Source of the DNA: an uncultured Prochlorococcus sp.
GTDB taxonomy: Bacteria > Cyanobacteriota > Cyanobacteriia > PCC-6307 > Cyanobiaceae
Assembly: GCA_902560875.1 (NCBI GenBank)
Contig: CACENO010000008.1
Span: 1-64,000, forward strand
DNA length: 64,000 nt
Direction of reading: 5' to 3'
Positions 45,018 to 47,571 of the stretch are shown here, piece after piece (the stretch's first letter is position 1; every line of letters starts with the position of its first letter). A model generated the notes under the pieces. That model had not been told where the DNA came from, searched no databases, and saw only the letters and a program-made list of their open reading frames with translations. The translations under genes and the position numbers were made by a program.

Positions 45018-45314
45018 ATGGCGTTCTCAAAACCAAGTACAGGAACAGTACTAGAAAGGGAAAAGCAAACTGCTCGCTATCCAGAAGCTCGTGTAATTGT
45101 TCTAGACGATAACGTCAATACATTCGAGCATGTGGTTAGCAGTCTTTGGAAGATCATTCCAGGCATGACAGAAGAGCGCGCTTGGGACCTCGCACACAAA
45201 GTTGACAGAGAAGGCTCAGCAGAAGTATGGCGAGGTCCTTTAGAACAAGCAGAGTTATACCATCAACAATTATCTGGCCAGGGCCTAACAATGGCTCCCT
45301 TAGAACTTTGCTGA
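45018..45314 (+). CDS. clpS: ATP-dependent Clp protease adaptor ClpS
   Basis: A 98-residue N-degron adaptor that delivers substrates to ClpC/ClpAP. VIVLDDNVNTFEHVVSSLWK (about 27-46) contains the conserved acceptor pocket Asp/Asn residues, and AWDLAHKVDREGSAEVW is the second conserved block. A 25-residue tail before the domain is flexible. It lies near clpP but is divergently arranged; a hairpin follows its stop. Confidence 0.94.
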   Translation: MAFSKPSTGTVLEREKQTARYPEARVIVLDDNVNTFEHVVSSLWKIIPGMTEERAWDLAHKVDREGSAEVWRGPLEQAELYHQQLSGQGLTMAPLELC

Positions 45315-45377: not shown

Positions 45378-45674
45378 ATGGGTCGAACTGTCAGGACTCA
45401 CAGCACATATATAAAGGGGCTAATGCCATGGTTGTTAGAACTGTCAAAGGACAAAAAGGTTCAGACAGTTACTCCAGGCGAAATCAGAAAAACCAATGGG
45501 AGATCAGAGCAATTAATAATTAAGGTCTCTACAACAATTCAAGGAGGATTTAAACTGCTTGCCAGAAAAGGCAATAGCGTACAAGAAGTATTTGTTGTGA
45601 CGTCTGCAGGGAAAGAAGAATTATCCTTAAGTATTAAACAAAGTAGACCTTATGGTAAAAGAGATAAAGAGTAA
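45378..45674 (+). CDS. DUF2103-like conserved protein
   Basis: A 98-residue basic protein starting MGRTVRTHSTYIKGLMPWL. VQTVTPGEIRKTNGRSEQL and TIQGGFKLLARKGNSVQEVF fit, as I recall, the cyanobacterial DUF2103 family, described as a putative metal-binding protein; no cysteine is present here, so a zinc role is doubtful. Function unknown. It starts 63 bases behind clpS and marks the end of the conserved block; the orphan region begins after it. Confidence 0.6.
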   Translation: MGRTVRTHSTYIKGLMPWLLELSKDKKVQTVTPGEIRKTNGRSEQLIIKVSTTIQGGFKLLARKGNSVQEVFVVTSAGKEELSLSIKQSRPYGKRDKE

Positions 45675-45696: not shown

Positions 45697-45831
45697 TCAA
45701 TCCAGATTTGTTGATAATGAAGAAAATTCAGGGATTTGATCATTAGCTAGTGATTCAATTAAATCTCGAAGCATTTCTTCCTTCACTGCATTCATAGCTT
45801 CATCGATATCTGATAATTCCTTTTGATACAT
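45697..45831 (-). CDS. 44-residue acidic protein, unknown
   Basis: A short frame, MYQKELSDIDEAMNAVKEEM then LRDLIESLANDQIPEF, forming one amphipathic acidic helix with a Ser-rich end. No membrane segment or motif I recognise. A TATAAT on the minus strand (45856-45851), inside a 15-bp palindrome, lies about 20 bases upstream of the ATG. The helical composition looks protein-like and not like translated noise, but no second member was available for comparison. Confidence 0.45.
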   Translation of the reverse strand: MYQKELSDIDEAMNAVKEEMLRDLIESLANDQIPEFSSLSTNLD

Positions 45832-45969: not shown

Positions 45970-46173
45970 ATGATCATAAGCATTTTATTAGAGCTTATCT
46001 TAACTAATATTGTGAAGGCACACGATGAAAATAAAATTCAAAATATTTGTAGATACAAAAGGAATGAAACCTTATGCATAAGAACATATAAGAGTTTGCC
46101 AAACGTTTTATCCACTAAGATCGAAGACCAAAAGCCAATACAAATCAAGGTAATTCCGTATAATCCAAGATAA
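45970..46173 (+). CDS. 67-residue exported protein with paired cysteines
   Basis: A small protein with an N-terminal hydrophobic segment (residues 2-15) that reads like a short signal peptide, then H18-D19, C27 and C36-I37. The two cysteines could form a disulfide in the periplasm. The spacing of I-S-I-L, H-D, C and C-I is identical to that of the longer protein encoded head-on at 46222..46647, so I regard the two as related. The frame cannot extend upstream because a TAA lies two codons before the ATG. It ends near where the longer relative continues for another 60 residues, so it may be a short or truncated member. Function unknown. Confidence 0.5.
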   Translation: MIISILLELILTNIVKAHDENKIQNICRYKRNETLCIRTYKSLPNVLSTKIEDQKPIQIKVIPYNPR

Positions 46174-46221
46174 TAAAACCTTCTTCTAATGACCATTTTA
46201 AAAGTACTAATCAAGAGGAAG

Positions 46222-46647
46222 CTACATCTCACAATAATCAGAAATAAGATTGAATTCAAACCGCTCTTTTGGAAAAAACCAATTATTCCATTGATTATTT
46301 TCTCGAGTTGTATTTAACATCCTTTTTTTACAGTTAATGGCCACGTAAAGAATTTGACCATTACTATTTACTGCCTTTGTAATATGGTTGTCTCCTCTAG
46401 ACCTCCAAGTTTTCCAATTGAGTTTTAATGTTCCATAGCTCCGCAAGTATGACATTCCATATAGACTATTAGTATTTTTTTTAATACAACCCGAATAATC
46501 TTTACCACCTAGACATAGATCATGCAGTTCTAACTTATCATGTGAATTTACTTCCAATTGAGGATAAACAAAAGTCAGGATTGAAATAAAAGTGATAATT
46601 TTTTTATTTAAATATCTAAATGAATGCATAATCAACAAGAGATTCAT
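46222..46647 (-). CDS. 141-residue exported protein with conserved cysteines, unknown
   Basis: A small protein with a signal-peptide-like N-terminus (basic NKK at 14-16, hydrophobic 17-29) and a mature domain with H36-D37, C45, C54-I55 and two further cysteines (VAINCKKRM and the terminal DYCEM). It is rich in Asn, Trp and Lys. ATG 46647 is drawn; ATG 46629 (MHSFRYLNKK) is equally good. It converges on the 67-residue relative across 48 bp. I recognise no family; a secreted or periplasmic role is inferred from the signal. Confidence 0.6.
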   Translation of the reverse strand: MNLLLIMHSFRYLNKKIITFISILTFVYPQLEVNSHDKLELHDLCLGGKDYSGCIKKNTNSLYGMSYLRSYGTLKLNWKTWRSRGDNHITKAVNSNGQILYVAINCKKRMLNTTRENNQWNNWFFPKERFEFNLISDYCEM

Positions 46648-46682: not shown

Positions 46683-46952
46683 TTAAATCTCATAGTTATC
46701 TTCAAATTCTTCTAAAAACCTTTTATAATCCTTATATAAATTATCAGTTTGGTCTGTAAACCCCTCTGTATCATACAAAGAGTTTAAAAGTAAATAAGTG
46801 CCCTTGGTGGGTTCAAAAGCAATTCGATATTCAGTTTGTATGTCCTCTTCCTGAATATCGTTAATAATGGCTGTAACCAACTCCACCTTTTTCATGGCCT
46901 GAGATATCTGATGTTCAAGCTCCTTGTTTAACTTCCTTCTTTTCCGTGCCAT
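46683..46952 (-). CDS. 89-residue charged protein, unknown
   Basis: A soluble protein with a very basic start (MARKRRKLNKELEHQ), a helical first half (QAMKKVELVTAIINDIQEE) and an acidic C-terminus (LYKDYKRFLEEFEDNYEI). The charge split between ends resembles small nucleic-acid or ribosome associated proteins, but no motif confirms this. Same strand as the exported protein, 35 bases upstream of it; the two may be cotranscribed. Confidence 0.55.
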   Translation of the reverse strand: MARKRRKLNKELEHQISQAMKKVELVTAIINDIQEEDIQTEYRIAFEPTKGTYLLLNSLYDTEGFTDQTDNLYKDYKRFLEEFEDNYEI

Positions 46953-47232: not shown

Positions 47233-47571
47233 ATGAATAAGAAATCTACAAAATCAAACTTGCCATGGTGGGTAGAACTACTGTTTGTTCAAGTTGGATT
47301 GCCAGATAACTGGCTTAGAAGCTTTCTTAAAACCAGAAAGAGAACTATTTATCATCTAAAGAGTAACAAAGAGTATGTCTTTACTACTGTTCTATTACTT
47401 TTAACATTGGCATACATCAATCCATTAATAAAGCAAGCAAGTACTAAAAATAACTGCATCAAAAACTCTGAAAGAATTGTAAAGCTATATTCAAGTTCAG
47501 ACAGTAAGCTTATCGAACAAGAATTAGACGTGCTTGGTACTCACTTCTGCAATGGTGGAACTTTAAGATAA
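47233..47571 (+). CDS. 112-residue protein with one membrane helix, unknown
   Basis: A basic, tryptophan-bearing N-terminus (LPWWVELLFVQVGLPDNW) precedes one membrane helix at about 49-64 (YVFTTVLLLLTLAYIN). The C-terminal 45 residues carry C76 and C107-like cysteines (NNCIKN and THFCNGGT) and would be periplasmic or lumenal. The stop is two bases from the end of the convergent glycosyltransferase gene. A 280-bp gap with no gene lies upstream. Function unknown. Confidence 0.6.
   Translation: MNKKSTKSNLPWWVELLFVQVGLPDNWLRSFLKTRKRTIYHLKSNKEYVFTTVLLLLTLAYINPLIKQASTKNNCIKNSERIVKLYSSSDSKLIEQELDVLGTHFCNGGTLR

Follow-up and report, generated by a model that had tools for sequence, protein, structure and literature searches.

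Two small genes that converge in a 64,000-nucleotide stretch of uncultured Prochlorococcus DNA (the whole of which is here called the window) encode proteins, P0001 and P0002, whose resemblance is shown by profile comparison to be genuine homology, confined to a 26-residue module that follows the signal peptide. The pair is also shown to consist of old, vertically inherited convergent genes, each of which is separately conserved. Family membership and synteny are well supported; as to function, we infer, with a probability of roughly 0.55, that the module is a lineage-specific, disulfide-stapled alpha-hairpin used for docking. The module is new, unnamed and of modest size, and it is in wide use within one lineage.

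Organization and conservation of the gene pair

The window belongs to a fragmented source genome of 1.36 Mb with 74% completeness. An ORF check of the window confirmed the coordinates and translations of both genes, and thereby the two convergent ORFs reported in the initial annotation (Table 1). P0001 comprises a predicted signal peptide (residues about 1-17), a C-x8-C module (about 18-42), a linker and a C-terminal PIQIKVIPY signature, while P0002 comprises a predicted signal peptide, a C-x8-C module, a linker and a C-terminal LysM-associated domain. The N-terminal hydrophobic stretch of each suggests that both proteins are exported, and comparison with orthologs indicates that the true start of P0002 may be Met-7 or near it. 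No convincing terminator common to the convergent genes was found between P0001 and P0002.

Table 1. Features of the convergent pair and its surroundings (window coordinates), and tautomerase genes found at the corresponding position in other genomes (coordinates of the respective loci)
Feature	Position	Strand	Basis
ClpS-like gene, syntenic flank	45018..45314	+	sequence, synteny
DUF2103 gene, syntenic flank	45378..45674	+	PF09876 match of L030 ortholog, synteny
44-aa 'DEAMNAIKEEM' ORF, syntenic flank	45697..45831	-	synteny
Short gene P0001, 67 aa	45970..46173	+	orthologs, residue conservation
P0001 C-x8-C module (C27, C36)	46018..46104	+	module profile E 1.3e-10, P0001 being among the 20 rows of that profile
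PIxIxVIPY C-terminal signature, second conserved block of short family	46132..46170	+	ortholog conservation
Long gene P0002, 141 aa	46222..46647	-	orthologs
P0002 C-x8-C module (H36, H42, C45, D50-Y51, G53, C54)	46462..46545	-	profile, conservation
P0002 C-terminal domain, about residues 69-141 (C106, C139)	46225..46443	-	LysM-protein homology, AF2
89-aa 'KKRRKL' protein, syntenic flank	46683..46952	-	synteny
112-aa 'LPWWVELLFVQIGLPD' membrane protein, syntenic flank	47233..47571	+	synteny
MIF-type tautomerase genes	L033:5764-6102, L035:6181-6519, L036:6124-6471, L040:6040-6378, L136:1607-1945		

The order ClpS, DUF2103, DEAM ORF, short gene, long gene (the latter two convergent), KRRK and WWVE is present in the window and in 17 other genomes, these showing either the full order or an order that stops at contig ends. 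At two loci (L046 and L048) the long gene is missing and the short gene still lies between DUF2103 and KRRK, an arrangement that is also observed in genomes of 1.6-1.7 Mb of genus g18. Searches at an E value of 0.001 retrieved the short family from 114 of 400 family genomes, some of the weakest matches being other module carriers; P0001 belongs to this family, since it combines C-x8-C with PIxIxVIPY and lies at the DUF2103/KRRK locus. The short gene is kept in most highly streamlined Prochlorococcus genomes sampled, and this retention suggests that it matters for a photosynthetic organism that ranks among the most abundant.

In five genomes a MIF-type tautomerase gene, which is missing from this position in the window, is situated between the convergent genes (Table 1), the copy in L035 matching PDB 2xcz with an E value of 4.6e-33. 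In genome G026, a Cys-rich module protein (L041:4841-5332, minus strand) is encoded divergently from the short gene, and the long gene is located on another contig (L042).

Homology confined to the mature N-terminal module

The gapless register on which the initial annotation was based is present, H18-D19/C27/C36-I37 of P0001 corresponding to H36-D37/C45/C54-I55 of P0002. A pairwise BLASTP alignment of the two proteins returned an E value of 0.002 for one comparison (6 of 24 positions identical), which is not significant for a single pair picked from all protein pairs in the 64 kb window. Orthologs of both proteins are present across the picocyanobacteria. They were represented by one alignment per family, of 15 long proteins (A1) and 17 short proteins (A2), and the profile-profile comparison that had been suggested as a check proved significant: hhalign of A1 against A2 yielded an E value of 1.4e-7 and a probability of 94% over 35 columns, which run from the last part of the signal peptide through the Cys region. 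With the signal peptides removed, the mature regions matched with an E value of 4e-4 over 26 gapless columns that start at the predicted mature N-terminus, and none of 300 column-shuffled controls of these mature profiles attained the real score (best shuffled score 23.6, real score 25.8).

A held-out test, in which a module HMM built from one family only was run against 2166 ORFs, was consistent in both directions. The long-only HMM recovered the short proteins L046 (E 1.4e-4), L044 (0.007), L047 (0.017) and P0001 (0.11), several short orthologs ranking just under the long family with few false matches, while the short-only HMM recovered long proteins from 6e-5, with P0002 at 0.003. Since P0001 itself scores only 0.11 with the long-only HMM, it is a weak member and the case rests on its family.

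Of the shared residues that had first drawn attention to the pair, the cysteines are those that hold up across orthologs. C-x8-C is kept in 17 of 18 short proteins (C27/C36) and in 15 of 17 long ones (C45/C54), and the supposed His-Asp part of the register does not extend to the short family, in which H18 occurs in 2/18 and D19 in 1/18 proteins; a mature N-terminal His is typical of the long family alone (H36, 13/17). The shared ISIL, which is not conserved across both families, and the shared Ser-Leu (S61 in 2/17 and L62 in 1/17 long proteins) are coincidences. In the ortholog alignments the Cys pair is lost jointly and never singly (short protein L038, long proteins L044 and L047), and the short protein of G001 (L037/L176) has C-x5-C in place of C-x8-C. 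The working register is thus C-x8-C, often in the form C-x2-A-x-DY-x-GC. P0002 fits the consensus of A-x-DY-x-GC[VI] with H-x2-C (through H-x2-C and DY-x-GCI) and P0001 (NICRYKRNETLCI) does not; the latter joins the module superfamily through profile comparison only, and its family, in which the His, DY and Gly that mark the main module class are absent, is to be seen as a divergent branch.

Beyond the module, profile comparisons find the second halves of P0001 and P0002 unrelated. The proposal that the short protein equals the long one minus its second half must consequently be abandoned: the short family has its own PIxIxVIPY block (P56 and I57 in 17/18 each, I59 and V61 in 16/18 each, P63 in 15/18), and the second half of the long protein is a separate, LysM-associated domain. 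Residues 69-141 of P0002 are aromatic-rich, with a conserved Trp and invariant C106 and C139 (17/17), and the same domain constitutes the C-terminus of LysM-repeat proteins of 200-500 aa (L050-L065, L073, L075-L078). Matches to the A1 profile were obtained in 376 of 400 family genomes, and in 244 of the 251 good-quality ones. AF2 models this domain with a pLDDT of about 90 as a beta-sheet, of which YGPLxINW is the first strand, plus a C-terminal helix; no Pfam or NCBIfam model matched it, and a fold search of P0002 gave no PDB match at an E value of 0.001 or better. No phage or IMG/VR viral relatives of P0002 were found, so that a phage origin is unsupported.

Module carriers and proposed role

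Module-profile searches retrieved carriers from 52 of 151 family genomes. For the collection scan alignment A3 was used, A1 being too diverse. A third protein with the same Cys register, as anticipated if a family exists, was found in the source genome itself (G000:C17, L049:5118-5603, minus strand; 161 aa, with an extra C-x2-C in its second half), and further carriers exist elsewhere. At least six exported-protein architectures carry the module, namely those with PDZ, Cys-rich 'CPxGYAYIGxGxC', 'RGKYGRYI', TPR-containing, LysM-associated and short PIxIxVIPY parts, and H-x2-C is common among the PDZ and Cys-rich carriers. The module is N-terminal in 60 of 67 distinct carriers, internal in six and C-terminal in one, although one of the internal six, L132, belongs to the short family and probably has its start placed too far upstream. 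A class-wide search matched 12 of 194 genomes, all within the picocyanobacterial family, to which the module superfamily is shown by these searches to be restricted in the genomes sampled. Literature searches retrieved no description of the module, and an exoproteome paper (PMC5839243) offered no usable link to module proteins.

Seven carriers (L103, L107, L109, L116, L118, L125 and L127) are exported proteins that combine the module with a single PDZ domain and lack a protease domain, and neighbouring sets of two or three different module genes occur at L120 (G161:C35), L130 (G021:C1), L131 (G149:C24) and L129 (G036:C49).

As judged by profile membership, P0001 and P0002 are distinct members of this module superfamily, which is the second of the two options left by the initial annotation. 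Its notion of one small exported family in inverted arrangement holds for the N-terminal two-Cys region, the convergent orientation and the predicted export, and fails for the unrelated second halves. Comparison of modules gave E values of 7e-17 for long against Cys-rich, 5e-14 for long against PDZ and 2e-7 for long against short. Of these modules the long one is nearest to that of the short protein, ahead of PDZ (2e-5) and Cys-rich (1e-4), so that the module alone may have undergone an old local duplication.

In the role that we propose, the two module cysteines would form a disulfide following export, and two short helices would thereby be stapled together as an alpha-hairpin. The disulfide is favoured by the loss or retention of the Cys pair as a unit, which is the best evidence available, and the hairpin architecture is suggested by the AF2 model of P0001, the weak sequence matches to pectinesterase inhibitors (PMEI) and the non-significant PMEI and BWI-2c fold matches described below. 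As a portable docking tag, the hairpin would deliver different cargo domains to a shared partner in the envelope, or bring them to one another. The cargo of the long protein would be its LysM-associated domain, which elsewhere follows peptidoglycan-binding LysM repeats, so that this protein probably acts at the cell wall; the short protein would carry only its PIxIxVIPY tail, likely a beta-strand or peptide ligand, and could be a minimal adaptor or a competitor at the docking site. A more specific version, which we advance very tentatively, is that the tag recruits many exported proteins (PDZ, wall-binding and Cys-rich) to one envelope receptor, access to which is regulated by the short gene product as a minimal soluble form.

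The main rival to the docking tag holds that the signal peptide and stapled hairpin together serve as a ready-made leader from which new exported proteins arise, without any common partner, copies having been fused to new coding sequence at gene birth and the hairpin aiding folding or shielding the mature N-terminus. Such a secretion leader would account for a module that is directly N-terminal in 60/67 carriers and for the very diverse domains downstream of it; however, at least five larger proteins have the motif internally or C-terminally with no adjoining signal peptide, and DYxGC is conserved across architectures beyond what a leader would need, which makes this a serious minority explanation. 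It appears unlikely that a metal is bound by the mature N-terminal His, His-x2-Cys and Cys of the long protein and of most other carriers: although H36 and H42 (13/17 and 12/17) of the long family and the frequent H-x2-C of PDZ and Cys-rich carriers agree with metal binding, most short-family members are without both His, paired Cys loss is the expectation for a disulfide, and Cys pairs of exported proteins are usually oxidised.

The other option of the initial annotation was that an entire gene was duplicated long ago in inverted orientation and that the short copy then decayed. The adjacent, convergent position of the genes and a short module slightly closer to the long one than to the other classes tested would agree with it, but no inverted DNA repeat remains, homology stops at the module, and the short gene is not a decaying duplicate because it carries a conserved C-terminal signature of its own and outlives the long gene in the 1.6-1.7 Mb genomes; decay being excluded on these grounds, we consider such an origin highly improbable. 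Hardly any weight is left for chance resemblance of two unrelated small exported proteins, for which the weak pairwise BLASTP result and the coincidental His-Asp, ISIL and Ser-Leu identities could be cited, in view of the profile-profile E value of 1.4e-7, the shuffling control (0/300) and the reciprocal held-out HMM matches.

A lineage-restricted module that has been shuffled ahead of many exported proteins marks a common, unstudied part of the Prochlorococcus and Synechococcus envelope. It gives a name-able domain to unnamed secreted proteins, and the LysM-associated domain serves as an anchor for placing them.

Predicted fold and comparison with known systems

AF2 models P0001 as a helix (residues 2-27), a turn and a second helix (33-41), with C27 ending the first helix, C36 inside the second and no further helix beyond this hairpin, while the module region of P0002 is of low confidence. 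Fold-search matches of P0001 were non-significant, with E values above 1, the top one being BWI-2c (PDB 2lqx, E 4.3), and PMEI 1x8z was also among them. As the initial annotation had stated, neither protein belongs to a recognised family: no Pfam family fits P0001 or P0002, and when the sequences of both families were searched against Pfam, NCBIfam and PDB, no family could be assigned. Matches to Reovirus_bridge, Gln_amidase and Rieske were rejected as sporadic and below cut-off. Weak PME_inhib matches were seen for 6 of 15 long members, which match TIGR01614 (best E 2e-4) below its curated cut-off; membership was rejected at 19 bits versus a cut-off of 35.95, over residues 8-54 only.

In plant PMEI, the N-terminal hairpin is formed by a C-x8-C disulfide across two short helices. 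The module has the same C-x8-C spacing as this hairpin (TIGR01614, PDB 1x8z), the fold match of P0001 being non-significant, but it is bacterial, spans 26 residues, is followed by differing second halves and does not lead into a four-helix bundle; the pectinesterase-inhibitor bundle was rejected, as in the AF2 models the C-terminal domain of P0002 is beta-rich and P0001 has no more helices. Alpha-hairpinins have two disulfides that derive from two C-x3-C motifs. The alpha-hairpinin BWI-2c and the module are both small, disulfide-stapled helix-turn-helix structures, that of the module being predicted; the single Cys pair of the module, as opposed to two disulfides, places it outside the alpha-hairpinin class. 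The AxDYxGC[VI] pattern also resembles the helix A/B junction of TPR helix pairs, and some module carriers contain TPRs in addition, but the module is a single predicted hairpin, without repeat and without a TPR Pfam match on it. Another comparison concerns the picocyanobacterial LysM-repeat wall proteins, to whose C-terminal domain that of P0002 is homologous; P0002 differs from them in that no LysM repeat was matched in it or its orthologs and that it carries the Cys module instead.
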